This document shows, piece by piece, positions 2,013-53,560 of a stretch of 64,000 bases of DNA. Both the position numbers and the translations under genes were made by a program. Source of the stretch: Patiria pectinifera (Eukaryota > Echinodermata > Asteroidea > Valvatida > Asterinidae); contig CM057129.1 of the NCBI GenBank assembly GCA_029964075.1, positions 11,027,430 through 11,091,429 on the forward strand, read 5' to 3'. The number at the start of each line of letters is the position of its first letter. Within the stretch, counting starts at the first letter, position 1. The notes under the pieces are model-generated. The model searched no databases, was not told the DNA's origin, and saw only the letters and a list, made by a program, of their open reading frames with translations.

Positions 2013-2098
2013 CTAGCAAATCTCGTTCTTGTTGTTCTTACAGTTAGGTCTCTCTCGGCTTGTTGTCAGAGGCTGAAAAGGAGCTACGGTTGCCTGTG
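2013..2098 (-). other. Unit F exon 1 (5' UTR), C1q gene off left edge
   Basis: On the minus strand the exon ends in a strong donor (GATTTGCTAG then GTGAGT, donor GT at 2,011-2,012). It matches the first exons of the other five units and contains no ATG. The 5' end is estimated at about 25-30 nt past the TATA-like box. The coding exon belonging to it is not in the window. Confidence 0.65.
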
Positions 2099-2122
2099 AG
2101 GGGAAAAGCGGGCGCTCGTGCC

Positions 2123-2460
2123 TTAAATATTACCATCGATTTCCTGAGCAGTGACTGAGGAAAATGGCTCGGTTTGTGATTGGTCCCTGCGCACTGTCAA
2201 TCACACACCACTGACTCGCTTCATATTAATGAGACGGATATTATAAGTTGATGTGGTCCAGGCTATATAGTCACTATAAAAACTTAGATCACCGACACTG
2301 AAATAGTCGCATCTTATTGGCAAATATCGTATGGATGTCGGTAACACATCCAAAACACGTGATTTGTGATTGACACAAACAACCTGTCGATCACAGACCA
2401 CTCACTTGTGGTCACCGACTTGGGTGACTAACTTCAATTGGTGGATAGAGAAGTGACGTA
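2123..2460 (-). promoter_or_regulatory. Unit F promoter
   Basis: Reading on the minus strand, a TATA-like AATATTTAAG lies at 2,123-2,131, a CCAAT box (ATTGG on plus) at 2,179-2,183, and a PBX/MEIS-like TGTCAATCA at 2,195-2,203. The distal module has an E-box CACGTG at 2,356-2,361, TGATTGACA at 2,367-2,375 and a CRE-like TGACGTA at 2,454-2,460. Its second PBX/MEIS half is mutated by one base (TGTCGATCA). Sites are recognised by motif and by conservation between units; binding is inference. Confidence 0.6.
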
Positions 2461-4275
2461 CACCGGCCGTGATTCATTCAATTGGCACTTCAGTCTATTA
2501 AATTGTGAGGAAATGTTCTAGATTTTATTTGCAATTAAATCTTAGCCAAGTCAGCGGCAATACTAGGGTTAAACTTCGCGGGGGGGGGGTAGTGAGAACT
2601 CGTGATGTTTTTTATTTTCAAATGGTGCATTTAATACATTCAAATAAAACGTATTATTACAACAGTGCATTTCCACATAAGGATTTTAAAATGTGGGGGG
2701 GGGGATGGGTGGGTGGGCGGGCACAGGCTTTCACTGGAGGAGGAGGGGAAGAACATGTCCCCCGTGTCCCCCATAGTTGTGCGCCTGGGTAAGGCTTTGC
2801 TATTTAATTGAGACTTTAAGGAAATAAAATAAATACGAGTTGGAAGAAAGTTAAATGAACTTCGATAAACTGTACACATCATTCGGTCTGCGTATCACTG
2901 CGGCCCTCTTACGGTGGAAGTGAGTTTTTTAGCTTGTGTATTTCTAAATCCGAATAATCAGTCCCAAAAATGTAAAAATGTATGACCGGTGATGATCAAC
3001 CTGAAAACCACCCATTCACGAGCTCAAATAATGACAAGGTTCAACAATAGCATGTACAATATTTCAAGATAATTACCCCCTCTCTCGATATAATAACAAA
3101 AAAACATGTATGCTTTTTGAGCAGATTTCCGGTGTTTGTTATTGTATGACTTCCGCATAACGATTCACGATTCACGATTCTTAACTAGGTTTGGTGATAT
3201 CCGGACAAATACTTATCACATGAGAATGTGCAATTCTGTATATTTATCATCATCAAATTATAACAATCTCTTAAGCAAAGGCTTGCAGCGATGGGGGTCG
3301 GGTGGAAGTTGAACGACCACACGCCCCCCTCCCCAACCCGTTGGTAGAAAAAGGATAATGACGAAGCTACTGATCTAATTAGGGCCTAAAATGAATGGCC
3401 ATGTTCCCGACCGGGGACGAAGCCTAGGTTTACAAAACACTCAAAGTCACAAGACCTAAAACGGTGTTTTCCAAACGTTCTGTTTCCAGCTTCGGGTATG
3501 CGGTTTTCCAATGAAGCTGGATATGAATATGGAATGAAGCCGGGATTTGAAAAAGTCACTCTCTTGGCGTGTATAATAGTCTTCGTTCAAAACGCCTGGC
3601 TGTTCCGCCACTCGGTCAAATACCGGCGCGAGTCAGGTTGACCTTGTGAAAAGGCTACAGTTAGGTCATTAATTTTGACCAGCAGAGCAACTTCCTTGTT
3701 ATTATTTGGGGAACCACCAAATTGGAAAATGAGAAAACCCGGGGGTGGGGAGAGTGTTGGATGGGGTGGACGCTACCTGACTATTGAGGGCACTGTTGTA
3801 AAATGCATGTACATACGCGTACGTATAGTGTTAAAAAATATCGTATGCAAACAAAGCCTGTAAAGACTGTCAAAATCTTGGAACGATTGCGTCATTTACA
3901 TTTATGAGCTCCAGGCTCTCGCCAGCATGCATGTTACTATAAATGAAAATTGAGCCGATAATGGATCCATTGCCCAGGATACCTGCCCAAACAACAAGTG
4001 TTTCCTTTGGTTGTCGGGAATGTCATAATGTGAAGTCCCTTGGTGAGTTGTTCATTTAAACATATCTCCTGACATTGTGTGTGTGTTTACGTTTCCCTCT
4101 ATTGGAATATGTAGCCTCATTCCCACGATGTCCCAAAGGAATCTGTCTGTGCGATTTGTTAATAGCCATTGACAATACGGCATTCTTCTTCGAAGATTCT
4201 TCTTCGTGGAGAGCACTCCTGCATGACGTAGGGTGCCAAATCCAGTCTTGTGATCCGGTAAAGGTCACTGAGCTG

Positions 4276-4360
4276 ATATTAGGCCCACAAAAAGTCTCCG
4301 GTTTCTGGTATGCGCGCGCGTCGCCGTAGCCATGCGCGTCGGCAAAATGAAAACGTTTTT
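4276..4360. mobile_element. Left end of AGGCC-type MITE
   Basis: TTAGGCC followed by AAAAAGTCTCCGGTTTCTGG and a GCGC-rich stretch matches the ends of the complete element at 27,962-28,366. The right end is not found, so this is a truncated copy sitting at the edge of the F duplication. Confidence 0.6.
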
Positions 4361-4458
4361 TTTTTTCACCCTATGAGCTTGCTTGTTTTCTCTCGCAGCT
4401 GCGTTGTCTGGGTGCTTCGACTGAAGAGATTTCTTTACCCTCTTCGTCTTAGGTACCA

Positions 4459-4800
4459 CTACACTATCTCGTTCGCTTTGATGAACCTTCCGCACCTCTC
4501 AGTAGGGTCCTGTTGCTCCTCCATCAACTGGCAGTAGTTGCGCATCACCACCGTGTAGCGTTTTTGAATATCAGGGCTTGATGAGAACTCCTTCCCGTTA
4601 TACCTAGTCCTACTGCTCGGCTTTGGTACTCTGAGACTTAGACGCACCCTCATGGAGACTACTCTGAGGTCTGAGCCGACGGAGTTGAATGACGAGCACG
4701 GTTCAGAATTCAGAATGCTGTTCCTCCACTTGCTCCGCATTAGAAGGACGTAGTCTAGTTGTCGCCTCATCCCCAAGCCTCTGTCTTGGAAGGTCCACAT
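4459..4800 (-). mobile_element. RTE-like LINE endonuclease remnant
   Basis: The minus-strand frame reads QLDYVLLMRSKWRNS followed by SVGSDLRVVSMRVRLSLRV, which is the C-terminal part of the apurinic endonuclease domain of RTE-like retroelement polyproteins (the S-D-H motif region; here the usual His of SDH is Leu). The frame opens without a natural start and no reverse transcriptase follows. It is a dead fragment. Clade assignment is from memory of the family and is moderately sure. Confidence 0.7.
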
Positions 4801-6933: not shown

Positions 6934-7751
6934 CTATTCGGGGTAAAGGAGGAAGCCACTGAATGAGGTGTAGTGATATGAACTACTACCCGCCTGACCT
7001 TGTATGGTAAGATACACCGTGTCTTCACGGTGCAGCACCAGCACCGCGCTCCCAGACACCTGCTCTTGATTAGATGAATCCCCGCTATGTCCAGTGACAA
7101 CCCAGTCGTTGTTTTTCTTCAGATGTATGTTCAGGATAGTGCTTGGAGTATAGCCAAGCACAGAAAATGTAAACACGTAGGTGCCCGGCACTGTACAGGT
7201 AAATGTGCCAGTCTCGAGATCGAAGCTGGTACCCGGCAAAAGCGTCTCGGTCTCCTGGAATGGCAAACGGGTTTCGTGACTCGTAGAGGTTTCCGAGCCG
7301 CTCGTCCTCACCACGGTGAACGCTTGCCGCTGGTTGAAGCCGTCTGGTGTTTGTCCTGGCTCACCCTTCTGACCTTTGACACCAGTTTCTCCGATTCTTC
7401 CAACGATACCTGGTATACCTCTGGGACCTATCTTGCCGGGCAGGCCAATCCCATCATCACCTTTATACCCAGTGTTCCCAGGTGCTCCCCGCTCACCCAT
7501 AGGTCCAATCGTCCCAATCTCACCTTTTTGACCTGCATCGCCCGCTGACCGTACGGCCCCATCGGTCCTACTGGCCCAGGCAGACCTGGTATGCCGGGTA
7601 TTGCAGAAGGTCCCTGGCAGCACTGCTGACACACCTGAGACGCAGGACCATCACCGTCCGAGGAAACCGGCCCAGTAACGGAAGCTCGGAGCTTGACAGA
7701 GTTACACAGAAGGAGGGCGATTGAAATAATGGTTGCCATGCAATTGTTCAT
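6934..7751 (-). pseudogene. Unit E collagen-C1q gene, frameshifted
   Basis: The coding exon starts right at an acceptor (TTTTTTAACAG then ATG at 7,751) and encodes a signal peptide (ISIALLLCNSVKLRA), the VCQQCC cysteine cluster and the first collagen triplets. At 7,543/7,544 ten bases present in the other copies are missing, between CGCCC and GCTGACCG on the plus strand. The frame then runs to a stop at 7,428, giving a 107-residue truncated product. The remaining collagen stalk and a complete C1q domain ([26 protein letters not shown]) continue open in another frame down to a TAG at 6,934. The conserved downstream frame suggests a recent lesion. An assembly error is the main alternative. Confidence 0.85.
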
Positions 7752-8752: not shown

Positions 8753-8815
8753 CTTGAAGTAACGTTTTGGAATTCTATCAGGACAGGAATCCTCGACAGT
8801 CGAGCAAATTGCTAG
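8753..8815 (-). other. Unit E exon 2 (5' UTR)
   Basis: A 63-nt exon bounded by acceptor TTTTCAG and donor CAAG/GTAAGTG, lacking ATG, and matching the second exons of units A-D. Here CTCGAG of the other units has become CTCGAC. Confidence 0.75.
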
Positions 8816-10769
8816 CTGAAAATAATACCCCAAAAAAATTGTCATTCCAAACTCACTCGGAGATGACTTGGGGACTGGTAGGAGAGGCATAGCTTAATTT
8901 CACACGAAAACACCGCAACAAATCTCTGTGATTGCGGATTGAGTTCTTTTTTTCTTTTTCTTTTTATTTCAAGCGAATTGTGTTTTCCAACGGCTCTGAC
9001 TGGACTTACGTTTGAGCAACAATCGTCTTTGTTTGAGGATTTACTAGTTTGGAATCGAACGAATTGATCACAAAATGAGAATTTTGTCAAAATATGTCAC
9101 CAAAATCAAGTTAAAGTCACGTGAGATCATATTGCAATGTCCGGACAAGTACCTATATCGTGACAGAAACTTTGCAATGTCAAATGTGAAGATATGACCG
9201 GTTTCTAATTCCCTTAAATCGTTCGGAAAACCCTTGTATAGATTTGGTTTAAAAAGTGACCCCACGTTCACGTCACGCTGTTGTACGTTGTTGGAGACGG
9301 AATTCCATTACGAGAATCAAAACATTTCGCTTACATATTCCTCAAAATGTACACATCTTCTTTCTGAGCTGAATCTTCAACAGGTTCCTCAAAATGTACG
9401 TATCTACTGAGCTGAAACTTCAACAGGTTAAATAGATGTTGAGGACCTTACTAAAGATATTAAGAAATTATGTTGCTTCTAACAAACAAAATGCACCAAA
9501 AGTAGATGATCCTATGTTTCTTTAATTCATTGGCTCAAAATGTGCTTGAATTTGTGGTTGTGAGAATTACAGTGAGCTTACAATTTCTGCATTAATAACT
9601 GAAAATGATCTGATACCAAGGAAATAGTGGCGAAATGTTACAGGTGGCATTCAAGTTAACAGTCGTTACAAAAAGATTAACTATTTAACCGGGTGGGAAA
9701 TTAGAACACCGGATTGGCTATTAGCATCAGCCACCATCTGTTTCTGAACAAAGTATGTCCCAGAAAATATGTCAGATTTACTGCACAATAATTTAGTGTT
9801 CATATACATGCATGAAGCCAAATGGGCCTTATTCACGACTTGGCCATTTTTGTCGAGTTCCCTGAATGAATTTTATTAATTGTTAACTGTTGAATGGGAT
9901 GGCGCCAGACTTTTTATGCAGGCATAATGCAGCCTTACTTTACTGTCAGTTTTTTTTTTTTAATCTGGCTTTTCACATTAGGGAACGTTAAATTACAAGT
10001 TTGAAATTATTCACTGAAGCAGAATGGACTTCATTAGTAATTAACGTGCTTTCATTTCTCTACACAAGTTCCAGAAATCAAGATTTTACCTCGCTCTCAA
10101 TACAATATGGCCGAGTCGTCAATACCACTATCGGTGTCTCAAAAAATATTCAACAGAATCTTAATACATGTAGTTGCATGTTGAGTGGAGCCCTTTACAT
10201 GCAAACATCACTAAATTCAAATTCATGTGTTTCGAAGTTTTAAGGCTGAGAGCAGAGCATGCAGCAGGGCCGAATAATGTCTACAAATATCAACTCTATA
10301 CATGATCAGAAATGAATCCAGTTATTTAAAGCAATTTGAACTAGAATAAAACTGTTTGCATAATCATCCGGTCCGTTCATATTTGCGCCTTCTAATAGTG
10401 AAACCATAGAGCGTTTGTTTCCGACTAGCCACACTGTTATTAGCAATGTTTGAATGTAATTATAAATCATTGACAGAAAAAGGCGCGGATCGAATATTAG
10501 CGCGCTTGTTTGGCTGTGAACATCCGTGTATCAGTAGTCACGCAATATCAGTTTCAATTGAAGTTTTGTACAGAAAAATCGTGTTTTTCAGTCCTCCAGC
10601 AAGTACAGTTAGAGAAAGTGGAAATTTCAAGACGGCTACCGCGCTCAGCAATAATCTTAAAAAGAACCCCACGCTGACTGAAATAACACTATGTGCAAAA
10701 AAGGCAACTTTTTTGTTTCTGAAAAAGAAAAGAAAAAACAACAAACAATTAATTGTTTCAAACACTCAC
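8816..10769 (-). other. Unit E intron 1
   Basis: Its 1,954 nt match intron 1 of units F and D in patches (for example 9,480-9,780 and 10,120-10,340). No independent gene was seen; the short open frames lack codon structure or domains. Confidence 0.6.
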
Positions 10770-10840
10770 CAAGCAAATCTCGTTCTTGCAATCAGTTCGC
10801 TCGGGTTGTCGTCTGAGGATGAAGAGAAGCTGCGGTCTTG
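10770..10840 (-). other. Unit E exon 1 (5' UTR)
   Basis: The donor GTGAGT (GT at 10,768-10,769) follows GATTTGCTTG. The exon is ATG-free and matches the other first exons. The 5' end is estimated from the TATA-like CTATTTAAG at 10,866-10,874. Confidence 0.7.
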
Positions 10841-10865
10841 TGAGGAGTGAAGAGGCCGCTCGTGG

Positions 10866-12840: not shown

Positions 12841-12841
12841 A

Positions 12842-17812: not shown

Positions 17813-18634
17813 TTATTCGGGGTAAAGGAGGAAGCCGCTAAATGAGGTGTGGTGATTGGAAGGACCACTCACTCTACCACTCATGGTAAGATACACCGTG
17901 TCTCCTTGCTGCAGAACCAGCACCGCGCTCCCAGACATCGGCTCCCAGTGACTTGCAGTGCTATAGCCAGTGATAACCGCGTCGTCGTTCTTCCGGAGCT
18001 GGACGTACAGTGAGCTGCTGGAAGGATATTTGGTCATAGAAAACATGAACACGTAGGTGCCCGACACACTACACGTAAATGTGCCAGTCTCGAGATCGAA
18101 ACTGGTACCCGGCAGTAGCGTCGCGGTCTGCTGGAAGGGCAAACGGGTGTTACTGCTCGTAGACACATCTGAAGCACTCGACCTCGTCACGGTGAATGCC
18201 ACCCGCTGGTTGGAGTCGTCTGGTGTCTCCCCTGGCTCACCCTTTTGACCTTTGACGCCAGTCTGACCGGTTGCTCCAACTAACCCTGGTGTACCCCTCG
18301 GACCTACCTTGCCGGGCAACCCTACCCCGTCGTCCCCAGGGTTCCCAGGTGTTCCCCGCTCACCCATAGGTCCAATAGGCCCAATCTCACCTTCGTGACC
18401 CTGCTGACCTGCATCGCCCTTTGACCCCGGCTGACCGTACGGCCCCATCGGTCCTGCTGGTCCAGGCAGACCTGGTATGCCGGGTATTGCGGCAGGTCCT
18501 TGGCAGCACTGCTGACACACCTGAGAAGAAGGACCATCACCGTCCGAGGGAACCGGCCCAGTAACGGAAGCTCGGAGCTTGACAAAGTTACCGAGGAGTA
18601 GGGCGATCGATAAAATTGCCACACAGATCTTCAT
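17813..18634 (-). CDS. Unit D secreted collagen-C1q domain protein (273 aa)
   Basis: One coding exon encodes a signal peptide ([18 protein letters not shown]), a VCQQCC cysteine cluster likely to cross-link chains, an unbroken Gly-X-Y stalk of about 28 triplets ending KGQKGEPGE, and a C-terminal C1q domain of about 130 residues ([37 protein letters not shown]). C1q domains form trimers and bind varied ligands in secreted recognition proteins. The start was placed at 18,634 because CTGTACAG directly before ATG is a splice acceptor; an open frame extending 33 codons further is intron. The stalk differs from other units by one lost triplet and one gained triplet. The stop TAA overlaps AATAAA. 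Ligand unknown. Confidence 0.9.
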
Positions 18635-20032: not shown

Positions 20033-20095
20033 CTTCAAGTAATGTTCTTCAAACCTATCACCAAAGGAATCCTCAACACTCGAGCAGATTGCTGG
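20033..20095 (-). other. Unit D exon 2 (5' UTR)
   Basis: A 63-nt ATG-free exon, with acceptor TTTCAG and donor GAAG/GTTAGTG. It contains CTCGAGTGTTGAGGATTC, the segment best conserved between units. Confidence 0.75.
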
Positions 20096-20611: not shown

Positions 20612-21420
20612 CATTCAGGACTGTGATTGGATACAGGGGGACATGACGTAAATGGTGGCAGCATGATAAAGGTCTATGACAGAAACTCAATGCTCAAAAG
20701 GACGATAGGACTGGAATCAAATACCCTGTGAAAATTGTATAAAAAACCTTAACATGGAATGGGTTTTCAAAATAATGTCCCCGCGTGCACATTGTTTTTA
20801 ATGCGTGTGTTTGCAACGGAATCCTTTTCCAAGACTGAATTCCTGACCAAAACATTGTGCATACATTTTTCTCAGAGTGTATATTACCCACTGGGCTCAA
20901 ACTTCAACAGGTTAGTTCTTATACACCCTACTTCAGATTCTATGGAATTTGGTCTCATACCAAGGAAGTAGTGGCGGTAATATTACAGGTGGACTACCAC
21001 AATTAAGTTACAGTCGCTAAAAAATAATGAATATTTTGGTATGAGAACTCAGGGTACTGGTTTTACTTTTAGCGTCAGCCACCATATGTCTGTCAACTGA
21101 ATGTGCATTAAAATATTTAGAAATTCTGAACATTTCTGTACAACCACTCAACATTCCAAATGTTAATCAAAAAACCACTATCGTTGTTCGTAAAAAAAAA
21201 AAAAAAATCAACAGAATCTCAGTGGCATGCTGAGTGGAACCCTACATGTAAACATGACTGAATTCATGCGAGAGCTTGCGCTTCAGTTTTTTTTTAGGGG
21301 GTCAGTACAGCAGAAGGCCCGCATAAAAAAAATTGTACAAACATCAACTGCATACACTGATTTCTACAAATGAATCCCAGGGAGCACTATAAACGTAAAA
21401 CAATTGTTTGTAAAACTCAC

Positions 21421-21508
21421 CTAGCAAATCTCGTTCTTGTTGTTCTCACAGTTAGATCTCTCTCTCGGCTTGTCGTCAGAGGCTGAAGAGGAGCTACGGT
21501 TGCCTGTG
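21421..21508 (-). other. Unit D exon 1 (5' UTR)
   Basis: Donor GTGAGT with GT at 21,419-21,420 after GATTTGCTAG; ATG-free. The 5' end is estimated from the TATA-like box at 21,533-21,541. Confidence 0.75.
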
Positions 21509-21531
21509 AGGGGAAAAGTGGGCGCTCGTGC

Positions 21532-21900
21532 CTTAAATATTACCATCGATTTCCTGAGCAGTGACTGAGGAAAATGGCTCGGTTTGTGATTGGTCCCTGC
21601 GCACTGTCAATCACACACCACTGACTCGCTTCATATTAATGAGACGGATGCTATAAGTTGATGTGGTCCAGGCTATATAGTCACTATAAAAACTTAGATC
21701 ACCGACACTGAAACAGCCGCATGGTATTGGTGGACACTGTATGGATGTCGGTGACACATCTAAAACACGTGTTTTGTGATTGACACACACAACCTGTCAA
21801 TCACAGACCACTCACTTGTGATCACCGACTTGTTGGGTCACTAACTTCAATTGGTGGATAGAGAAGTGACGTACATCGGCCGTGATTCATTCAATGAGCA
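21532..21900 (-). promoter_or_regulatory. Unit D promoter
   Basis: TATA-like AATATTTAAG and a CCAAT box near 21,590 lead a proximal TGTCAATCA. The distal module has CACGTG (21,766-21,771), TGATTGACA (21,777-21,785) and TGTCAATCA (21,795-21,803), then a CCAAT box and TGACGTA near 21,850-21,875. Confidence 0.65.
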
Positions 21901-28640: not shown

Positions 28641-29478
28641 TTATTCGGTACCGGCGTAAAGGAGGAAGCCACTGAATGACGTGAAATGCTCGCGTTGGTG
28701 ACCCTGCACAGTTCCGAAAAATGTAATATACACCGTGTCTCCTCGCTGTAAAGCCAGCACCGCGCTACCAGACACCTGCTCATATGTACCGGAATTACCG
28801 CTACCGCCAGACACAACCCACGCGTCGTTATTTCTGAGATGTATGTTCAGGTAATTGCCGGAAGAATATCTACGCGCGGAAAACATGAACACGTAGGTGC
28901 CCGGAATATCACACGTAAATGTACCAGTCTCTAAGTCGAAGTTGGTACCCGGCAGAAGCGTTTCGGTCTTCTGGAAGGGCAGACGGGTGTCGTGACTCGT
29001 AGAGGTATCCGAGTGGCTCGTCCTCGTCACGGTGAATGCTACCCGCGGGTTGGAGTTGTCTGGAGTCTCCCCTGGCTCACCTTTCTGACCTTTGACACCA
29101 GTTTCCCAAGTTCCTCCAACAAAACCAGGTAGCCCTCTCGGACCTATCTTGCCGGGCAGACCAATCCCATCATCACCTTTAGACTCAGTGTCCCCAGGTG
29201 CTCCCCGCTCACCCATAGGCCCAATAGGGCCAATCTCACCTTGCTGACCTGCATCGCCCTTTGACCCCAGCTGACCGTACGGCCCCATCGGTCCTGCTGG
29301 CCCAGGCAGACCTGGTATGCCGGGTATTGCAGCAGGTCCCTGGCAGCACTGCTGACACACCTGAGACGCAGGACCATCACCGTCCGAGGGAACCGGCCCA
29401 GTAACGGAAGCTCGGAGCTTGACAGAGTTACCAAGAAGAAGGGCGACTGAAATAATGTTTAACCACAAAATCTTCATG
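28641..29478 (-). CDS. Unit C collagen-C1q domain protein with damaged stalk (278 aa)
   Basis: The coding exon begins one base before ATG (29,477), directly after acceptor TTCTTCTGTGCAG. It encodes a signal peptide (IISVALLLGNSVKLRA), VCQQCC, a collagen stalk and a C1q domain ([40 protein letters not shown]). Within the stalk, two obligate glycines are replaced: Gly to Glu in GDT-ESK and Gly to Trp in GGT-WET. The same positions are glycine in A, B, D and E. Such changes normally destabilise a triple helix, so the product may fold poorly or be an intermediate on the way to a pseudogene. The stop TAA overlaps AATAAA. The C-terminal residues differ from the LYPE/LYPK/LYSE of the other units. 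Confidence 0.85.
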
Positions 29479-30918: not shown

Positions 30919-30976
30919 CTGGAAAAAAAGGTCTTGAATCTATCACGAAAGAAATCCCCAACACTCGAGCAGATTG
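30919..30976 (-). other. Unit C exon 2 (5' UTR)
   Basis: 58 nt, ATG-free, acceptor TTATTCAG and donor CCAG/GTGAGT. It is 4-5 nt shorter than in D and E because the acceptor sits closer to CAATC. Confidence 0.75.
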
Positions 30977-31204: not shown

Positions 31205-32221
31205 ATTTCGCCCCCCTAAGATATCGGTCATCGAGTGACCAAAAATGTTGAAGCTCGGTACATGCATAGAGCAACTCATCATGAACATACCCAAGAAATT
31301 GTATGACTGTACTCTCTAATTTCCAAAGAGTGAAATTCACTCTATTCGAGTGAAGATTCAATTCCACCAACTGCAACCAAAAAAGTTCAAACTGTTATAC
31401 AAAACAATGCAAAAGAATCTAAGTGGCATGCTGAGTGGGACCGTTCATGCAAACATGACTGAATTCATGCGAGAGCTTGTGCTTCAAACATATCAGGAGG
31501 GCCGAATAATTTTACCAACATCAACTCTACACATGATTTCTACAAGTGATTCCAGCCAGATAAAGCAATTTGGACTCGAATAAATCTGTGTGCATGATGA
31601 TCCTGTCCCTTTATATTTGCGCCTTCTCACAGCGAAACTAAAGGATGTTCATTCCGACTAGCCACACATTTATCAACAATGTTTGAATGTAACTATAGGA
31701 AATGATGGAACCAAAATTAATGGCGGGGATCGGAATATTAGAGAGCTGGTTTGGTTGTATACGCAAGCGTGATTCAGTATCGTAGTCACGCAAGATTAGT
31801 TTTAATTGAAGTTTTGTTCCTAAAAATCTTGTTTTTCGGTCCTCAAGCAACTACATTTTACAAGCTTGCAGAGAAGGTGTTATGTGTCTGGCAGAAGGGC
31901 GTATACGCGAAAGCCGTATCACCAAAATCTTTCCACCAAAAGGGAGTAAAGCAGAAAACGTCCTTCGTTTTAATAAATTTGAAACTTTTCAGAGGAAACA
32001 CAAGTTGCTTCAAAAGGTATTATTCATGCGTGTGACAAATTTAGAATTCATACTATTTAGAATAGTTATGCCTGACAAATAATGGATAGTACGCATGGGG
32101 GAGTTTCAACGCAATTTTTTTAAAAGTATTAATAATCTTAACAAGTGATTATTCAGCGTTAGAACGGTCCCTGCCCTACTGCCGGGCATTCGACAAAATG
32201 GCAACATCAAACCGAATACAA

Positions 32222-32452: not shown

Positions 32453-32589
32453 GCACGCTCGTTGTTCGGAAAATAATTGTGTCAGCAACAATTATCAGAA
32501 TCTAGATCCGACGCTGATTCAAACGCTATGTGCAAAAAGGCAACAATCATTTGATTGCGCAGGGTTAAATTATTGTTTCAAAGACTCAC

Positions 32590-32674
32590 CGAGTAAATCC
32601 CGTTCTTGTCGTTCTTGCAATCAGTTCTCTCTTGGGTTTTCGTCTGAAGATGAAGATGAGTTTCGATCGTTGTG
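32590..32674 (-). other. Unit C exon 1 (5' UTR)
   Basis: Donor GTGAGT (GT at 32,588-32,589) after GATTTACTCG; ATG-free. The 5' end is estimated from the TATA-like box at 32,699-32,707. Confidence 0.75.
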
Positions 32675-32697
32675 AGGAGTGAAGTGGCCACTGCTGT

Positions 32698-33060: not shown

Positions 33061-34704
33061 GTTCGTTGCACCTGGTGCTATTGAATTGCACGCATATAGA
33101 CGAACCCGTGTACGTGATCACATACACTCGCGAGGCCCCTTCAATGGAAAAAGAAATATGCACGATTTTGTACAAAGCAACTGCCCCATGATGGAATAGC
33201 TGAACAATAGCTAGCATAATGCTTTTGTCATTGACGGGGGCCGTCGTGATTAAAGTGATAGTGCCCGGTTGAGTCTATACATTTGAACATTTTGGTATTA
33301 TCGTACTGCAGTTAAAAGATCTGATTTTGGGAGGAAAACATCACAAGCAATCATTAATAAGGAACAATTCACTTCAATATTTCACTATGCCTCACACATT
33401 TCGCAAACCCTCGTTGAACTGGTGGGGGGTGTGACAACAAGTTTGTCAACAGTTGTGCTAAAAGATGTAATTTTTCTGCACGAAAGAATCCCTTTGCAGT
33501 TCCACACAGCGGGGGTGGGGAGGGAGACTGGGAGGGGTGGGGGGGGCTTCACAGCATCTTCACACAGACGCAAGTTCGACTGGACACACAATGTTGCTTG
33601 CAGGACAACGATGTAGCCGACCACAACTATGGTGTCACGCCCCCACACCCCTCTAGCGACGCCCGTGAAATTACCACCTTAAAGGTGGAACTATATAAAG
33701 TGTCAATTACGACTTCTGATACTAAAGTTTTGCATTCAGCAATGCTTGAATGTAACTTGATGTACCCATCAATGGCGCAACTGAACTACTAGAATGACAC
33801 AGTTTACAGCAAAGTGCGAATTTCATTGGGTTTGTAAAGGAAGTTTGACATGTCCGCATTTCCGTAATAGGTCTCCACAAGTCATGACCAACTTCCGCAT
33901 AACAATTCACCGGGGATAGGTTTAATAAATTACACCAGCATGTTATATTCTGGATTTCTTGACCGCCGTGACTTACCAGCTAATATGTTAAAATTAAAAC
34001 CATGATAGGTTCATATTTTTCGCAGCTCAATTTGATTCATGCCAATCAGCCTGCAGAGAAATGAGCGTCGGGACAACGACAGAGGGCGCAACGTGACGAC
34101 AGCTAGGGATGCACTTTTCTATTAAATTCCCCATAGACACAAGTGTCAAATGCCGATACTTCAAAATTCTTTAAAACAAGAATCTTGAAAATTTACAGAA
34201 TCCGTGAAAGAAGAACTTGCTATAATCTAAGGAATGGCAGCGTAAGCCTCGGACACTCCGTCTTATTATCAACAATTTCTTCCGAAAGAGGGGGAGCTGC
34301 ATAAATACTGCTCATCGCGAGCCGACTTCTGTCCATTTGCGATGTAAACCCATTAAGTGTCAGCAAATACACACTTGTATGAGTTGTCTAGTCAGCTGTC
34401 TCGTCATTATTGGAGGGCAGGGAGATAAATCAGAGGGAAGGGAAAAGGGGGAGGCGCACATCATTCACATCGGCATTGACAGCGGAGTAGTTTCAGTCGT
34501 CGCAGAACGTTACCGGACGTGGGGGCGCACAGTTAAAGCGTTTCTTTAGCGATGTATCCAAAGTGGGTTGGAAAAAAAACCAAAAAAAAATTCAAAACGT
34601 GGGTGGGGAAATAAACCCTCTCCCACCCCGACTTCCGCCGACTATGAAAGTAATTTTCCAGCTGTTTATATTCACGGATTGCCGACAAGACCACTTTCCA
34701 ACTC

Positions 34705-37085: not shown

Positions 37086-37917
37086 CTATTTGGGGTAAAG
37101 GAGGAAGCCACTAAATGATGTGTAGAGCTTAGAGGAATCACCATGCGCCCTACCGTCAATAGTAAGATACACCGTGTCGCCTCGCTGCAGAACCAGTACC
37201 GCGCTCGCAGACAACTGGTCACGTTCACTTGCGTTATTGCTAAAGGTAGAGACAACCTTGTCGTTGTTTTTGACAAGATGAACCCAAAGGTTGCCGCTGT
37301 TTTGAACTTTGAGCACAGAAAACGTAAACACGTAGGTGCCCGGAACATTACATGTAAATGTACCGGTCTCTAGATCCAAGCGGGTACCCGGCAAAAGCGT
37401 CTCGGTCTCCTGGAACGACAAACGGGTGTCGTGACTCGTAGACGTATCCGAGCTGCTCGTCCTGACCACAGTGAATGCTACTCGCTGATTGGAGTCGTCT
37501 GGTGTCTCCCCTGGCTCACCCTTTTGACCTTTGACACCAGTCAGCCCGGTTGTTCCAACTAAACCTGGTATACCTCTCGGACCTATCTTTCCGGGCAGAC
37601 CAATCCCATCATTACCCTTCGACCCAGTGTTCCCAGGTGCTCCCCTCTCACCCATAGGTCCAATAGGGCCAATCTCACCTTGCTGACCTGCATAGCCCTT
37701 TGACCCCGGCTGACCGTACAGCCCCATCGGTCCTACTGGGCCAGGCAGACCTGGTATGCCGGGTATTGCAGCAGGTCCCTGGCAGCACTGCTGACACACC
37801 TGAGACGCAGGACCATCACCGTCCGAGGGAAACGGCCCAGTAACGGAAGCTCGGAGCTTGACAGAGTTACCCAGAAGGAGGGCGATTGAAATAATGTTTA
37901 ACCCCAAGATCTTCATG
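37086..37917 (-). CDS. Unit B secreted collagen-C1q domain protein (276 aa)
   Basis: The exon begins one base before ATG (37,916) after acceptor TTCTTCTGTGCAG, so this ATG is the first AUG of the predicted mRNA. Residues 1-23 are a signal peptide ([16 protein letters not shown]), Cys41/44/45 form the VCQQCC cluster, residues 53-136 are Gly-X-Y collagen, and 145-276 a C1q domain ([38 protein letters not shown]). One short triplet at Gly104-Ile105-Gly106 breaks the repeat register, as in every unit. A possible N-glycosylation site is NAS in the C1q domain. Expected to be secreted as disulphide-linked trimers or higher oligomers. Specific ligand unknown; TNF-like CTRP or complement-type roles cannot be separated. 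Confidence 0.92.
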
Positions 37918-38456
37918 CTGCACAGAAGAAAAAAAAGAACGGGGCAAAAAGAGTTTTTACTTTTTAACTACTGAATTAGTAAAAAGGTAATGAATTTCGC
38001 GGTCATTTGAGAAACCGTGCATAGCAAAAGATTTGAGAAAACATTATTCAGAAAATGTGTTCGCCGTGATGTTTAAGTGGCGAATCAGTGGACAAGGAAT
38101 TAAAACTTATTAAAAAGCGTAGTTTTTTAAATCGCTTGCCAAGGGTAACCCGTTGGATATATTTTGTTATTATTTTGCATGCCGATGAAAGTTACAAAGG
38201 TCACCAAAGTCCATGCCGATCAAGCGAGGCTTTCCGGAGCTTGTTTTTTTTTTTGGGGGGGGGGGGATGGGTGGTATCAATATCAACCATAAATAAAACA
38301 TCACCACACCCACCTCTGTGGTTCGTTCTTGAAGATCAGGTCCCAGAAGAGATCACAACGAGCTCAGTGTGGGCTAAATAACATACCAACGAAAACCGGT
38401 TAGTTTACAATTTAGTTAGGAATCAATGAAATTGTATTATCCTGTATTAATTAATA

Positions 38457-38942
38457 CAGGGTGAGTCAAAAAAAGCGAAACCCAAATGTCGGGACCATTG
38501 TTTTAGTGAAGTTCTGCATGTAGCGCCTCCAGAATCTAGGATATAAAAACCTAAATAATAAGGTTTCTTTTAGTACAAGAATCATTCAAATCACGTACTA
38601 CGTACTTTTTAAGTACCGTTTTAAAGTTCTGTCCACGGATCACAAGAAGGTAAGTGTTCTTTCAGGAAAACGAAAACAAATCACATACAGATGTGTGTGA
38701 ATTGTTTTCGTTTTTCGAAAGAACGCACACCTTTTTCGTGATCCGTGGACAGAACTTTAAACCGGTATTTGTGTTTAAAATTCCATAAATTGAAAAGTGC
38801 ATAAGTGATTTAAATGATTCTTATACTAACAGATGGCTTATGAATTGGGCTTTTATATCCTAGATTGTAAAAGTGCTACATGCAGAACTTCACTAAAACA
38901 AAATTCCCGACATTTGGGTTTCGCTTTTGTTGACATACCCTG
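38457..38942. mobile_element. Mariner-type palindromic MITE in unit B intron 2
   Basis: Ends CAGGGTGAGTC and GACATACCCTG flanked by TA (38,455-38,456 and 38,943-38,944). The element is nearly one long inverted repeat of 486 bp. It is the counterpart of 30,094-30,568. A related central segment without ends lies at 63,380-63,490. Confidence 0.9.
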
Positions 38943-39296
38943 TATATGAAATAGCGAGTTTCAATTTCATGTTGATGAATTGTCGTTTTGAATGTTAATT
39001 TGAAAAACTCGGCCGGAAATACCCGATGTTTGTACTTCAAATGAAGAGTTGTGCTAACGTTCAAAAAGGTATGATTTGTAGAGAATAGCGTACAACTCAT
39101 GCAGGCAAAGGTATACGGTAGGTGTAGGTGAGGGGAACCCGAAATTATGTAAATGTCTCGCTTTCATTTGTCAATGGAGTGGAGGTTTCTGTCATAATTT
39201 TTACCCAAATAAATGCATAGAAATAAGTCTTCTAACAATCATCGCTCTTTTCTGATGCTTGATAGGGTAAAAGCCACAGTTTCAACAGACACTCAC

Positions 39297-39354
39297 CTGG
39301 AAATAACGGTCTTGAATCTATCACGAAAGAAATGCCCAACACTCGAGGAGATTG
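39297..39354 (-). other. Unit B exon 2 (5' UTR)
   Basis: 58 nt, ATG-free, acceptor TCATCCAG and donor CCAG/GTGAGT. Confidence 0.75.
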
Positions 39355-40785
39355 CTGGATGACAAAAATAACAACAAAATAAGTTTCCGTCGGAGATAAA
39401 TGCTGGGGAGGCAATAATGAATTTCAGAAGTAAAACACACTCTGTCGCGCAAAATGTGATTTGGATTGACTATACCAAGCGGAATGCGTTATCCAACGGC
39501 CCTGACTGCACTTGTTTAACCCTAAAAGGGCCGGGTTATTTTGACCATCTCTCAGCCGGGGGGATTCCGCCCCTAAGATCTCTGCCATCGAGTGACAAAA
39601 AATATTGAAGCTCGGTACATGCGTAGAGCAACTCATCATGAACATACCTACGAAATATTGTGACTATACTCTCTGAATTCCAAAGAGTGAAAATTCGCTC
39701 CGTTCGAGTGAAGATTCAATCCCACCAACTGCAACCAAAGAAGTTCAAACTGTTATACAAAACAATGCAAAAGAATCCGAGTGGCATGCTGAGTGGGACC
39801 GTTCATGCAAACATGACTGAATTCATGCGAGAGCTTGTGCTTCAAACATATCAGAAGGGCCGAATAATTTTACCAACATCAACTCTACACATGTTTTCTA
39901 CAAGTGAATCCAGCCAGATAAAGCAATTTGGACTTTAATAAATATGTGTGCATGATTACCCTGACCCTTTATATTCGCGCCTTCTAACAGTGAAACTAAA
40001 GAATGTTCATTCCAATTAGCCACATATTTATCAACAATGTTTGAATGTAACTATAGGAACTGATGGAACCAAAATTAATGGCGCGGATCGGAATATTAGC
40101 GAGCTGGTTTGGCCCTACGCAAGCGTGTATCAGTATCGTAGTCACGCAAGATTAGTTTTAAATGAAGTTTTGTTCCTAAAAATCTTGTTTTTCGGTCCTC
40201 AAGCAACTACATTTTACAAGCTTGCAGAGAAGGCGTTGTGTGCCTGGCAGAGGGGCGTAGGCGCGAATGGCGTATCACCAAAATGTTTCCATCAAAAGCG
40301 CGTAAAGCAGAAAACTTCCTTCGTTTTAATGAAATTTGAAACTTTTCAGAGGAAACACAAGTTGCAGCTTCAAAAGGTATGATTCATGCGTGTAACAAAT
40401 TTAAAATTCATACTATTTAGACTAATTATCCCTGACAGATAATGGATAGTACGCATGGGGGAAGTTTCAACGCAATTTACTTAAAAGTATTATAATCTTA
40501 ACAAGTGATTATTCAGCGTTAGAACGGTCACATGCCCTACTGCCGGGCATTCAACGAGTTTCAATTTCACTCGACTTTTTCAATCGAAAATGAGAGTGAT
40601 TTTCACTCCAAAACGTTTAGTCCCTAATTTCACTCTTTGGAATTTAGAGAGAACGCTCGTTGTTCGGAAAATAATAGTGTCAGCAATTATTATCAGAATC
40701 TAGATCCGACGCCGATTCAAACGCTATGTGCAAAAGGCAACAACCATTTGTTTGCGCAAGGATAAACTATTTTTCAAAGACTCAC

Positions 40786-40870
40786 CGAGTAAATCCCGTT
40801 CTTGTCGTTCTTGCAATCAGTTCTCTCTCGGGTTTTCGTCTGAAGGTGAAGATGAGTTTCGGTCGTTGTG
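40786..40870 (-). other. Unit B exon 1 (5' UTR)
   Basis: Donor GTGAGT (GT at 40,784-40,785) after GATTTACTCG; ATG-free. The 5' end is estimated from the TATA-like box at 40,895-40,903. Confidence 0.75.
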
Positions 40871-40893
40871 AGGAGTGAAGTGGCCACTGCTGT

Positions 40894-41250
40894 CTTAAAT
40901 ATTACCATTGATGTCCTGATCAGTGACTTAATGGCTTGGCCCGGTATGTGATTGGCCACTGCGCGCTGTCAATCTCAAATCACTGAATTGCTTCGTATTA
41001 ATGAGACTCAAGATAATGCTGTTGCCTTTGAGGCTATATATTCACGATCAAAACGTGGACCACCGACACTGAAACAGCCGCATCTTATTGGTGGACTGAA
41101 CGCTATGTCGGTGACACATCCAAAACACGTGGTATGTGATTGACACACACAACATGTCAATCACAGACCACTTGCTTGTGATCACCGATTTGTTGGGTGA
41201 CTAACTCTGATTGGTGGATTGAAACATGACGTACACCGGCCGTGATTTAT
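40894..41250 (-). promoter_or_regulatory. Unit B promoter
   Basis: TATA-like AATATTTAAG, CCAAT box near 40,950, then CACGTG (41,126-41,131), TGATTGACA (41,137-41,145) and TGTCAATCA (41,155-41,163), with a CCAAT box and TGACGTA near 41,210-41,235. Confidence 0.65.
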
Positions 41251-42601
41251 GCGGATGTTCGTTGCTCTTGGTGCTATTGAATTGCATGCATATAGACGAA
41301 CCCGTGTACGTGATCACTGTACTCTCGCGAGGCCCCTTCAATGGAAAAAGAAATATGCACGATTTTGTACAAAGCAACTGCCCCGTGATGGAATAGCTGA
41401 ACAATAGCTAGCACAATGCTTTCGCCATTGACGGTGGCCGTCGTGATTGAAGTGATAGTGCCCGGATGAGTGTATACATTTGAACATTTGGTATTATCGT
41501 ACTGTAGTTATAAGATCTGATTTTGGGAGGAAAAAAACACAAGCAAGCATTAATACGGAACAATTGTCACTATGCCTCATGTATTTCGCCAATTTCGCCA
41601 ATTGGTGGGGGGGGGGTGGCAACAAGTTTGTCAATAGTTGTGCTAAAAGATTAATTTTTCTTCACGAACGAATTTCTTTGCATTTCCAAACAGCAGGGGT
41701 GGGGGTGGAAGGGAGACTGGAAGGGGTAAGGGAGGACACACGATTGGACACACAATTTTGCTTGCAGGACAACGATTTAGCCGACCACAACTATGGTGTC
41801 ACGCCCCCACACCCCTCTATCGACGCCCGTGAGATCACCAGCTTAACGGTGGAACTATGTAAAGTGTCAATTACGACTTCTGATACTAAAGTTTTGCATT
41901 CAGCAATGCTTGAATGTAACTTGATGATTACCCATCAATGGCGCAACTGAACTACTACAATGACACAGTTTACAGCAACGTGCGAATTGCATTGGGTTTG
42001 TGAAGGAAGTTTGACATGTCCGCATTTCCTGAAAAGGTGTCAACAAGTTATGACCAGCTTCCGCATAACAATTCACCGGGGATAGGCTTAATAAATTGCA
42101 CCAGCATGTTCTATTCTGGAGTTCTTGACCGCCGTGACTTACCAGCTAATTAGTATGTTAAAATTAAAACCATGATAGGTTCATATTATTCGCAGCTCAA
42201 TCTGATTCGTGTCAAGCAATACTGAGAAATGAACGTCCGGACAACGACAGAGGGCGCAACGTGACGACAGCTCGGGATGTACTTCTGCATTAAATTTCCC
42301 ATAGACACTTGTGCTAAATGCCCGTATTGCAAAATTCTTTTAAAAATACTCAAAACTCTCACAGGTTAACATGTCGTCTGTCATTTTGTTTTTATTTTTG
42401 TTGGGTAATTGACCGTTGAATTGTTTTGAATTTTTTTCCCGAAGACGACGACCCCTATGTCGCCAAAGCAGAAAAGTAGCCATCTTGAGAAAAAAAAGAT
42501 CCCTCCACAACATGGGAAAACAGCGCCATTTGTTAGCCCAATTGCATCCAAAAAGCTCAGAATTTTTTGATATAGAATATTTGAGGATATAACTTTAAGG
42601 G

Positions 42602-44365: not shown

Positions 44366-45112
44366 GTGCAGTAGTGACCTATTAACAGTCTATATGTGTA
44401 TACTATTACACTTCCAATATCTTTCTTTATGAACTTTTTAAAGATCACACAAAGAGAAAAGTGATGTCACGAGACTTTCCCATTGTAAAACGAACAACGC
44501 AATTGAACACAGAGAGGGCGCATGACTTTGATAAAGTCATTTCCCAAATCTCGGTCAAGTATCGAGCTTAAGTTTTTGCCCGCGATACACAATTTTGAAA
44601 CCTTGTATAACCGCTTTAAAAAGCATTGCATTTTGAAACATGATGCATGCGCTCCATTGCAAAATAGATCATATTAGGGCCCAATTTCATCTGAATTTTA
44701 CAGAATACGAGCTCGCGCCTCTTTCCCCGCTTGCACCCATCAAGTTCATGGCCCACAAAATGGTATAAATACTGGATAATTTGAGGGCATTTCAAATCAC
44801 GATTTCACCGGTGTAGGCAATTTTGGGCATATTTACTGGCCTGCATGTATAGGTACAGTTCTAGTTAACCTCCTTAGCAAATATGAGGGGTCGCTTTTGA
44901 AAGGAGACAGGACCTGATACGGTCCGACTCTAGATGCAGCTGACGGTTGACATTTTGCCGACAGTAAGCCGGTGTTTTGCCGACAATAACCTGGTGGCAT
45001 GGCAAGAGTGCCATGAGCGCTGTCACATGCACACCACACTTCCTCCATCTCTCTGGCACCATCGCCAAGCCGAGATTGACAGGGACTCCATGGGCCTTCT
45101 TCACAAGTCGGC

Positions 45113-45842
45113 CATATTGAAATTCCACCCATCACCATCGACAATTCTTCTCTTCAACCAATTCAAAGTGCACGGAAGCTTGGCGTAATCATCGATGAAC
45201 ACCTAACTATGGAAAAGCACATCAGTAATATATGTCGTGCTTCTTCCTTTGGCTTACATAAAATTGGAAAAATTCGAGAATTTTTGGATCAGTCAACAAC
45301 AGAAAGGCTGATCCATGCATTTGTGACAAGTTGCATCGACAACTGCAACAGTCTCCTTTACGGATTGCCAGATTCCCAACTTAATAAACTCCAACGGATA
45401 CTGAACTCTGCGGCGAGGCTTGTCACCAAAACACGCTTGCATGAACCCATTTCATCAGTTCTGCATGACCTGAATTGGCTACCAGTGAAATCCCGCATAA
45501 CTTTCAAATTACTGGTTCTGATTTACAAATGCATACACGGATTAGCCCCAATTTACCTCCAAGAATTAATCAATAAATATCAACCACCAAGAACCCTCCG
45601 CTCTAGTTCCAAAGATCTTCTCACTCCTTATCCAGTTACCACCAAATCATACGGTCAACGTGCCTTTCAATTCACTGCTCCCAAACTATGGAATGATCTC
45701 CCTAACCATATCAAAACCTGTCCCACCTTGGATCAATTCAAACAACTTGTTAAAACTCACTTGTTCACTCGCACAAGCGCATAGAGACTTAATTGTATTA
45801 TGCGCTATATAAGAACTGTTTATTATTATTATTATTATTATC
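45113..45842 (+). mobile_element. 5'-truncated CR1/L2-like LINE 3' end
   Basis: The open frame from about 45,113 to the stop at 45,784 reads ARKLGVIIDEHLTMEKHI, NSLLYGLPDSQLNKLQRI, KCIHGLAPIYLQELI and WNDLPNHIKTCPTLDQFK. These are the thumb and C-terminal motifs of CR1/L2-type reverse transcriptases. The 3' UTR is very short, contains GCGCTATATAAG, and ends in a (TTA)n tail at about 45,817-45,842. The catalytic FADD-type core is absent, so it cannot be autonomous. The reading frame is intact over about 220 codons, so the insertion is fairly young. Confidence 0.88.
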
Positions 45843-50404: not shown

Positions 50405-51247
50405 TTACTCGGAGTAAAGAAGGAAGCCACTGAATGAGGTGAAGCGATTGGCACTACTACTCGACCTACCCTCCATGGTCAGATACACCTCATCTCCGAC
50501 CTTCAGAACCAGCACGGCGCTCCCAGACACCTGCTCTTGACTACTGGTATCACCGCTGTGGCCAGTGACAACCACACCGTTGTTTTTCTTTAGATATATG
50601 TAAATGGTAGTGCTTGTACCATACTCGAGCACAGAAAACGTGAACACGTAGGTGCCCGGCACAGTACAGGTAAATGTACCGGTCCCTAGGTTGAAGTTGG
50701 TACCGGACAGAAGCGTCGTCGTCGCATCGAAGGGCAAACGGTAGTCGCGATTCGAAGAATCAGCCGAGTGGGTCGTCCTCACAACGGTGAACGCTACCCG
50801 CTGGTTGGAGTCGTCTGGTGTCTCCCCTGGCTCACCCTTCTGACCTTTGGCACCGGTTGGCCCGGTTACTCCATCTAAACCTGGTGGCCCTCTCGGACCT
50901 TTCTTTCCGGGCAGACCCATTCCGTCGTCACCTTTAGGCCCAGTGTTCCCAGGAGCTCCCCGATCACCCATAGCTCCAATCGGCCCAATCTCACCTTTCT
51001 GACCTCGATCACCTACATCACCCTTTGACCCCGGCTGACCGTACGGCCCCATCGGTCCTGCCGTCCCAGGCAGACCTGGTATGCCTGGTGAGGCAGCAGG
51101 TCCCTGGCAGCACGTTGGACACACCTGAGACGCACGACTATCACTATCACCGTCAGAGGAGACCGGCCCAGAAACGAAAGCTTGGAGCTTGACAGAGTTC
51201 CCCAGAAGGAGGGCGATTGAAAGAACAGTTGCCACGCAGGTCTTCAT
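50405..51247 (-). CDS. Unit A secreted collagen-C1q domain protein (280 aa)
   Basis: ATG at 51,247 directly follows acceptor TTTCTGTTTACAG; a nine-codon open extension upstream is intron. The protein has a signal peptide ([16 protein letters not shown]), a cysteine cluster changed to VCPTCC, an unbroken collagen stalk with an extra triplet (DVGDRGQKG) ending KGQKGEPGE, and a C1q domain ([39 protein letters not shown]). It is the most divergent copy and its promoter lacks the distal module. A GTAAGTG donor-like site lies 138 nt after the stop. Expected to be a secreted oligomeric recognition protein like units B and D; ligand unknown. Confidence 0.92.
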   Translation of the reverse strand: MKTCVATVLSIALLLGNSVKLQAFVSGPVSSDGDSDSRASQVCPTCCQGPAASPGIPGLPGTAGPMGPYGQPGSKGDVGDRGQKGEIGPIGAMGDRGAPGNTGPKGDDGMGLPGKKGPRGPPGLDGVTGPTGAKGQKGEPGETPDDSNQRVAFTVVRTTHSADSSNRDYRLPFDATTTLLSGTNFNLGTGTFTCTVPGTYVFTFSVLEYGTSTTIYIYLKKNNGVVVTGHSGDTSSQEQVSGSAVLVLKVGDEVYLTMEGRSSSSANRFTSFSGFLLYSE

Positions 51248-51995
51248 CTGTAAACAGAAAAAAAATATGGGCACTCAAGGGGGAAGACGATGGAAAAATA
51301 TTGAAGTGGCATGTATAAGACTTAAATATAAAAGGTTGTCGTCGGTTGCAAAAACAACGCACATGAGTATGGGAAGATTTCACGTCTTCAATATTAACTG
51401 ATCAAGTTCGAAAAGATTCTCTTGAAGCTTCCCATTACTGAACACAATATTTATTGACCGTGTACGAAAATGGAAAATATTTTGGTGTTAGTAGTCGCCG
51501 AATACTTTAAACGAATCCGCCTTTTGACTCATTTGAATGATTGGCAAAGGATCTAGTTTGGCGTACGATAAATTTTGATTTCTTAGTGTCGTCGCAGCAT
51601 GGGTGAGGGATAAGTGTTTAGAGCTAAAGGGGTATTTTTGCCCAGCAAAAATGTTGTGCACGTGTTTCACGAGCACCATTTTTTTCACAACTGCTGTTTT
51701 GTGAACGTCGCGCGAACGTTGGCAATTGTACCGCTATAAAGAGCGCCCCATATTGTCCGATAGTGTCCACGATCGCCCAATTAAGCGCCCTCAGAGGAAG
51801 ATGGTGTCCAGCCTAACCACTCTGCCCTCCCTCATTTCAGCTTCGATTTTATGGAGGTTGGATGACCGGTGAAAGCTTTAATCGTTTTCCTTTCGGCATG
51901 GATAAGGAGTGTGCCCTTGTTGAAGTCTACCCCAACAAAAATCACCTTTCTACGCCACAGTTTCTTAAAAACATTCCTTTACTACGAAAGCTCAC

Positions 51996-52057
51996 CTTAC
52001 TGTAGCTTTCTTAAATCTGTCCGGAAAGGAGTCTTCAACACTCGAGCAGATTGCTGG
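51996..52057 (-). other. Unit A exon 2 (5' UTR)
   Basis: 62 nt, ATG-free, acceptor TTTCAG and donor TAAG/GTGAGC. It carries CTCGAGTGTTGAAGACTC. An alternative donor, CAG/GTAAGG, would need an A-to-G change and is not present. Confidence 0.7.
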
Positions 52058-53373
52058 CTGAAATTAATAAAGCGAAAATGAGCAAAATGTTATTGAATTC
52101 GTTTAGGGATAACTTGGGAGCTGATGGTGTGAGGCATATCAGCTACATTTCAATTGTGAACACAAATTAATATGTACGATTCTCAGTTGAGTGAAATGTG
52201 ATTCGGATTGATTATTGTTAGACTCTAGTGATTGTGTTTGCGTTCAATTCACCAACAGCTTTGACGATTTATTTTATTGGATTAAAATGTTGGCACGATG
52301 TTAAGCCTGACTGGGATGCAACACAAGACTGTTAAACCTTGAGAGAAAAAGTAGAGATTATCTGCGTCAATTTCGCTTTTGTAATTACACCGACAAAACT
52401 GTCAAAATGAAGTCACGGTGTCCAGTAAATCGGCCCAACCACTAAACAGACAAAACCTTTGTCGAACGATAACTAAAACTATTAATTTTATCGGATAGAA
52501 ATGTTGGCTGCATGTTTAGGATGACTGGCAAAACAAGCCTATTAAGTATTGAGAGAAAATACACAGATATCGGCGTCAGTACAATTTTTAAAATAGCAAA
52601 TGCCACGTTCTGTTTGTCAATCGAATGTGTCTCAGAATTTATTGAGGATTTGTAAAATCTGTGTCAACCGCACTGCCAAAATATTCCAAATGTTACACCC
52701 AATTCCACTCTCGCTGAATCCAAAAATATTGAACAGAATCCAAGTTGTATGCTGAGTGGCCCCCTTCCTGCAAACAAGACTGAATTCGTACAGAACCTGA
52801 GCTTAAAACTGTTAACAGCAGAGTATAATAGGGCCGAAAGATTTGTTCAAACATCCACTCCATACATACACGAAATCTACATTCAGCTGAATACATCTAG
52901 ATAAGACAATAAAGACAACTGTGTGCATTGTGTCCGTTTGAAACTTCGCCCTTAAAGAGAAAAGTGTACAGAGTGTATTCTGAATATAGTCTCACTTTTA
53001 TTCAACAATGTTTGAATGTAACTACATGTATAAAATTGTGGAACCAACATGGCGAGGATCGGAACTCAGCGCGCTGGTTTGTCTGTTAGAAAGCTTGTAT
53101 TAGTATCAGAGCCACGCGAGCTAGATCAGTATCAAATGAAATCGTGTTTATAAAATAAACGTGTTTTCTAATTCTCAGTCCAAACAACCAGTGCGGTAGT
53201 ATGCTTGATTTTTCCCCGTTTTGTATGCTTGAGACACAAGCATATAAAGGGCAAAACAACTGTCAGCACTAACCTTCCCATTCTAAATCCTACGTTGATT
53301 AAAAAAACAAAACTGTGCGAAAACTGTGCAACTTTTTCCTGGGGGAAAAACACAATTTTTTTCAAACACTTAC

Positions 53374-53447
53374 CGAGCAAGTTTTGTCTTTGCAGTCACT
53401 TCTCTCAGATTATCGTCTAAAGATGAAGAGAGCTGCACGGTCGTTCT
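53374..53447 (-). other. Unit A exon 1 (5' UTR)
   Basis: Donor GTAAGTG (GT at 53,372-53,373) after CTTGCTCG; ATG-free. The 5' end is estimated from the TATA-like box at 53,472-53,480. Confidence 0.7.
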
Positions 53448-53470
53448 GAAGAGCAGAGCGCCGTTCGTGT

Positions 53471-53560
53471 CTTAAATATTGAAATCGATTCCCCGAGCAG
53501 TGACTGAGCAACTCGGCCCTGCTTGTGATTGGCCCCTGCGCGCTGTCAATCATGCATCAT
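53471..53560 (-). promoter_or_regulatory. Unit A core promoter
   Basis: TATA-like AATATTTAAG, a CCAAT box near 53,527-53,531 and one TGTCAATCA near 53,545. The similarity to the other units then stops, so the distal module is absent. Confidence 0.6.

Follow-up and report, generated by a model that had tools for sequence, protein, structure and literature searches.

A tandem collagen-C1q gene family in Patiria pectinifera with a conserved 5' side and diverging heads

Introduction

What does a run of similar collagen-C1q genes, each preceded by the same kind of non-coding leader, encode, and how have its members come to differ? This question is raised by a 64,000-nucleotide (nt) stretch of the genome of Patiria pectinifera (Echinodermata; Asteroidea), from contig CM057129.1 of assembly GCA_029964075.1 (positions 11,027,430 to 11,091,429), which we refer to as the window. 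A preliminary description of this DNA had proposed six collagen-C1q units in constant order and orientation, 8.2-12.6 kilobases (kb) apart, forming an expanding family of secreted proteins whose uniform leader may matter for shared regulation or recombination. From the computational analysis reported here we consider it probable that the array is a tandem family of complement-type recognition proteins, in which the 5' side stays constant while the heads diverge, in one pair of units through recombination inside the coding exon.

Layout of the array

The window resembles animal DNA (40% GC, with a CpG observed/expected ratio of 0.84). We observed six promoter/first-exon modules, five second exons and five collagen-C1q coding exons, all head to tail on the minus strand. 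The exon-1 donors (G of the GT) are at 53373, 40785, 32589, 21420, 10769 and 2012, with gaps of 12.6, 8.2, 11.2, 10.7 and 8.8 kb from unit 1 to unit 6, and the order, orientation and spacing described earlier were correct. Exon 2 (58-59 nt) could be located in five of the six units, unit 6 reaching the window edge before it. Intron lengths in the five complete units are 1320-1958 nt for intron 1 and 748-1440 nt for intron 2. When the window was searched with tblastn, no further units were found within it, the sole match beyond the five coding exons having an expect value (E) of 0.32. An Rfam scan gave no matches at gathering scores. The array would consist of at least six three-exon genes of animal type, each with a TATA promoter, and in each of them two short non-coding exons would be spliced to a single coding exon.

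The non-coding leader and its splice sites

Transcription starts were placed 30 nt downstream of the first T of TATTTAAG. The five complete leaders are then 133-148 nt long and none of them contains an ATG; the predicted exon 1 of unit 6 is also free of ATG. The start codon lies directly at the exon-3 acceptor in units 1, 4 and 5 (offset of 0 nt) and 1 nt past it in units 2 and 3, as had been claimed. By itself the absence of ATG is weak evidence, since it is also seen in shuffled leaders (9.5-24.5%) and in random 150-nt intron stretches (10.3%), nor can the units be counted as independent cases. Stronger evidence comes from the conservation of exon 2 and of the promoter with exon 1. When units 1 and 5 are compared, identity is 81% over 57 nt in exon 2 (E 6e-10) and 77% over 62 nt in the promoter/exon-1 part; the introns of these two units can be aligned in blocks only.

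Each of the 11 donors agrees with the 9-base consensus at 7-9 positions, a level of 7 being reached by 3.7% of the 3917 GTs on the minus strand. Of 3326 AGs on this strand, the five exon-3 acceptors score within the best 0.15-2.6%. Those of exon 2 are unremarkable (score 9-14), with a second AG 4 nt upstream in units 1, 4 and 5. Taken with the conserved exons and the position of the ATG, these splice sites support the idea that the units form a true gene family whose leader is uniform and non-coding, and each unit is probably spliced from exon 1 to exon 2 to exon 3. Descent from a single gene best accounts for the shared leader, whose uniformity follows from common ancestry. A common RNA fold of the leader was considered and rejected, as the five predicted leaders, folded one by one, do not look alike.

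An AG standing 0-1 nt before the ATG in all five units would also suit a trans-splice site for a spliced leader, with exons 1 and 2 lying outside the messenger RNA. We regard this as highly improbable, since it leaves no place for six TATA promoters with a kept exon-1 donor, nor for a kept exon 2 with a donor of its own.

Shared promoter and intron-1 block

We observed a core promoter beside exon 1 in all six units, with a TGATTGACAG-like site, CCAATCA and TATTTAAG in constant order. Allowing one mismatch at most, TGATTGACAG occurs 21 times against 5.5 expected (none of 100 shuffles had as many), and 16 of these occurrences fall within the promoter regions of the six units. For TATTTAAG, 9 occurrences compare with 3.5 expected, and six of the 9 are at promoters. 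Taken singly, CCAATCA shows no clear enrichment (19 occurrences, 12.6 expected, a number reached by 5 of 100 shuffles), yet it is found in every one of the six promoters. We take TGATTGACAG to resemble a PBX-MEIS composite site, and CCAATCA presumably resembles an NF-Y site.

Intron 1 contains a block of about 180 nt that is conserved in all six units and is a candidate enhancer. As an exon it was rejected, as it has frame-breaking indels and, by eye, no clear splice sites. The earlier suggestion of shared regulation fits the conserved core promoter and this block, as far as sequence alone can tell. The opposite strand of the block is open in units 1-3 and gives similar peptides (52656-52901, 39642-39935 and 31320-31580, plus strand), which may be chance. 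Intron 1 of unit 6 also carries an inverted repeat pair (239-442 with 653-855, 85%) that has no counterpart in unit 4 and is perhaps a mobile-element insertion.

The encoded proteins and the PGKxGP motif

The Pfam domain C1q (PF00386) was found in all five coding pieces with E of 3e-21 to 7e-27, and Collagen (PF01391) was above the curated cut-off in all five (for unit 5, only the piece past the frameshift was scanned). Matches to solved structures include cerebellins, C1q chains, C1q-like proteins and adiponectin. In the prokaryote and viral collections we found 4 loci, and at least 79 loci kept of 478 relatives (600 stretches listed), and the residues matched were mainly in the collagen part.

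The coding exon reads, in order, a hydrophobic N-terminus (seen by eye), a CxxCC cluster (upstream of the stalk in 5/5), a collagen stalk interrupted by a single conserved G-x-G break, and the C1q head. The products had been described as secreted; the hydrophobic N-terminus and the collagen and C1q domains make this likely, judged from the sequence. They would probably form disulfide-linked trimers and larger bouquets, with the C1q head binding the target.

A Gly-X-Y walk gave stalks of 29-30 Gly-led steps in the four open genes, with the break and the last step counted. In all five stalks the G-x-G break is followed directly by GLP GKx GPR (PGKxGP), in which the lysine and flanking residues are invariant. 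The break is the only irregularity in units 1, 2 and 4; in unit 3 one stalk Gly is changed to Glu and another to Trp. The residue at Xaa is I, I, V and I in units 2-5, and K in unit 1.

MBL and the ficolins have heads other than C1q. Their MASP-binding motif is Hyp/Pro-Gly-Lys-Xaa-Gly-Pro, located beyond the stalk break (PMC2592599, PMC5902488). It is present in C1q, MBL and ficolin chains, and its lysine is critical in ficolin A (PMC5902488). The genes studied here share with these proteins the N-terminal cysteines, the stalk break and PGKxGP beyond it, and differ in being arrayed as at least six copies. The position differs too, as the motif is within one triplet of the break here, whereas in C1q it is described as six triplets past the link region (PMC5902488). 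By analogy with MBL and ficolins, PGKxGP just past the break probably docks a MASP-type protease, and the proteins may have an immune role.

Some facts tell against such a complement-type function. Shuffling the X/Y residues produces PGKxGP in 4.5-6.9% of cases per protein, so that the motif is only suggestive; the five copies are related and not independent; and in unit 1 a K occupies the position that is aliphatic in the published motif. The same chance level and the same non-independence would be expected if these were ordinary tandem collagen-C1q duplicates with no link to complement, having an adiponectin/CTRP-like or matrix role, in which PGKxGP arose by chance and was kept by descent. 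The non-coding first exon would fit adiponectin as well. We hold this to be somewhat unlikely, as the motif comes right after a conserved break in 5/5 with invariant lysine and flanks, and MBL likewise has its motif beyond its break (PMC2592599).

Diverging heads and a proposed exchange between units 2 and 3

Promoter, leader and stalk remain similar while the second half of the head diverges. Columns with at least four residues number 19 of 286, and 12 of these are in the last 86; variable columns lie at 211-217, 228-240 and 262-271. Only one pair, units 2 and 3, shows a block boundary of the kind that a head exchange would leave, with a common front and a different head. From about 42345 through promoter, leader and introns, these two units are 82-98% identical in 200-column windows. 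From the coding exon onward the windows give 96, 89 and 86%, and then 64, 54 and about 40%. The block is about 5 kb long, and its end falls within the part that codes for C1q. Position 37318 gives the best split, with 61 differences in 599 before it versus 86 in 232 after it, and none of 2000 shuffles was as extreme.

The similarity of units 2 and 3 ranks 1-3 among the ten pairs in six segments up to codon column 200, and then 10, 8 and 7, the last place (10/10) being at codon columns 201-230. Over the C1q second half they are the least alike of the ten pairs (66%). In the roughly 150 columns just past the stop, similarity among units 1, 2 and 5 is 79-86%, and that of unit 3 to these three is 45-52%. 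Tree tests on promoter, intron block and exon 2 reject pairings other than units 2 and 3. We consider it probable, jointly with the reading as a whole, that recombination inside the coding exon joined near-identical 5' parts to different head ends and 3' flanks. The hint of recombination in the preliminary description is supported, although the clearest signal ends in the coding exon and not in the leader.

On the other side of the balance, a sister relation of units 2 and 3 is not rejected when the tree tests are applied to the C1q part, the synonymous divergence (dS) of this pair rises stepwise along the exon (0.07, 0.27, 0.43, 0.61) with no single jump, and the silent-site run test was not significant for any of the ten pairs. 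Nor is positive selection shown: over the ten pairs, the ratio of non-synonymous to synonymous divergence (dN/dS) is 0.21-0.80 for the first half of C1q and 0.45-0.76 for the second.

The stepwise climb of dS would also be seen if the C1q second half simply evolves fast and no exchange took place, and this half is indeed the least conserved in most pairs. However, silent divergence climbs too, though the introns of units 2 and 3 stay about 82-94% identical; the 3' flank falls at once to about 40%; and at codon columns 201-230 the pair drops in rank from 1-3 to the last of ten. Fast evolution without exchange is, in our judgement, quite unlikely.

A different pattern was seen in the first 74 codons, where pairs 2-5 and 3-5 have a dS of 0.04, versus 0.32-0.59 in later segments. 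Gene conversion was considered as the cause and rejected, as the run test gives it no support, so that constraint on the DNA is equally possible. In this part dN/dS exceeds 1 in 3 of the 10 pairs, which we read as an effect of the very low dS and not of selection. In pair 1-4, codon columns 140-154 stand out in the run test (p 0.0008, uncorrected for the ten pairs; p 0.27 for silent sites).

Signs of growth and decay in the array

A second recent 5' block is shared by units 4 and 6 (1549-3827 with 20955-23220, 88%, plus neighbouring pieces). This comparison covers the 5' side, the 3' side of unit 6 being outside the window. The coding exon of unit 5 has a 10-nt deletion in the collagen part, its frame stops after 107 codons, and it is likely a pseudogene. 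The description of the family as expanding holds only in part: it is favoured by two recently copied 5' parts (units 2/3 and 4/6), and opposed by the frameshift of unit 5 and the loss of two stalk glycines in unit 3.

Comparison with known systems

Collagen-bearing C1q proteins are reported from vertebrates, cephalochordates, urochordates, hemichordates, echinoderms, molluscs and annelids (PMC11312191). The array resembles the collagen-tailed type (C1q-like type I) in having a C1q domain preceded by a collagen stalk (5/5). With the large tandem clusters of C1q-domain-containing (C1qDC) genes known in bivalves, including oysters, it shares tandem same-strand paralogues, conserved splice sites and faster-changing introns (PMC6835236, PMC10672478). 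It differs from the oyster clusters in having the collagen tail, which PMC6835236 gives as extremely rare in bivalve C1qDC and as missing in C. virginica. Six oyster paralogues are described with one intron and two exons, whereas the array has two non-coding exons and one coding exon. ADIPOQ, also a collagen-C1q gene, likewise has a non-coding exon 1 (PMC5485524); however, part of its exon 2 is also 5' untranslated region and its coding sequence spans exons 2-3, while here one coding exon follows two wholly non-coding ones. A narrow literature search found no paper joining C1q domain, gene conversion, paralogs and immune, which does not imply absence from print.

Other features of the window

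Upstream of the array lies an I-set immunoglobulin exon (60493-60792, minus strand; Pfam E 5.5e-22), and at 62349-62717, also on the minus strand, an open stretch in which a hydrophobic segment of membrane type and a basic tail can be seen by eye. The two are perhaps one Ig-type membrane receptor gene. We take a 234-amino-acid open frame at 45080-45784 (plus strand) to resemble, by eye, the end of a non-long-terminal-repeat retrotransposon reverse transcriptase; it had no Pfam match at E 0.01. An AGCC tetranucleotide array at 54293-54765 (about 119 copies, 73% matches) is open in several frames. Large imperfect palindromes at 58062-59201 and 38454-38945 (80% and 78% self-inverted matches) are perhaps foldback elements.

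Table 1. Positions of the array features in the window
Feature	Position	Strand	Remark
Unit 1 core promoter	53471..53552	-	TATTTAAG, CCAATCA, TGATTGACAG
Unit 1 exon 1	53374..53448	-	non-coding; start inferred from TATA
Unit 1 intron-1 conserved block	52700..52870	-	
Unit 1 exon 2	51996..52053	-	non-coding
Unit 1 coding sequence	50405..51247	-	collagen-C1q, intact
Unit 2 block common to unit 3	37318..42345	-	unit 3: 28879-34176; end inside C1q coding
Unit 2 exon 1	40786..40871	-	
Unit 2 intron-1 conserved block	39750..39910	-	
Unit 2 exon 2	39297..39354	-	
Unit 2 coding sequence	37086..37916	-	intact
Unit 3 exon 1	32590..32675	-	
Unit 3 intron-1 conserved block	31392..31552	-	
Unit 3 exon 2	30919..30976	-	
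Unit 3 coding sequence	28641..29477	-	open, two stalk glycines replaced
Unit 4 exon 1	21421..21509	-	
Unit 4 intron-1 conserved block	21190..21375	-	
Unit 4 exon 2	20033..20091	-	
Unit 4 coding sequence	17813..18634	-	intact
Unit 5 exon 1	10770..10843	-	
Unit 5 intron-1 conserved block	10130..10290	-	
Unit 5 exon 2	8753..8811	-	
Unit 5 coding exon	6934..7751	-	frameshifted, 10 nt missing in collagen part, likely pseudogene
Unit 6 exon 1	2013..2099	-	remainder of unit outside window
Unit 6 intron-1 conserved block	1770..1977	-	

Implications

Two points appear worth following, namely the proposed exchange between units 2 and 3 and the kept protease-site motif. Collagen tails are reported to be extremely rare in the bivalve clusters (PMC6835236). 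It is doubtful, though conceivable, that the array as a whole is a head-diversifying system, in which recombination within the single coding exon would pass a constant 5' module, made up of promoter, leader and stalk with its protease site, from unit to unit and attach it to different C1q heads. If this were true, each new recognition specificity would immediately share one expression pattern and one effector with the others. If the heads vary while stalk, break and motif are kept, as they are in the five copies seen, the array would be a place to test how recognition may widen with a fixed link to complement.

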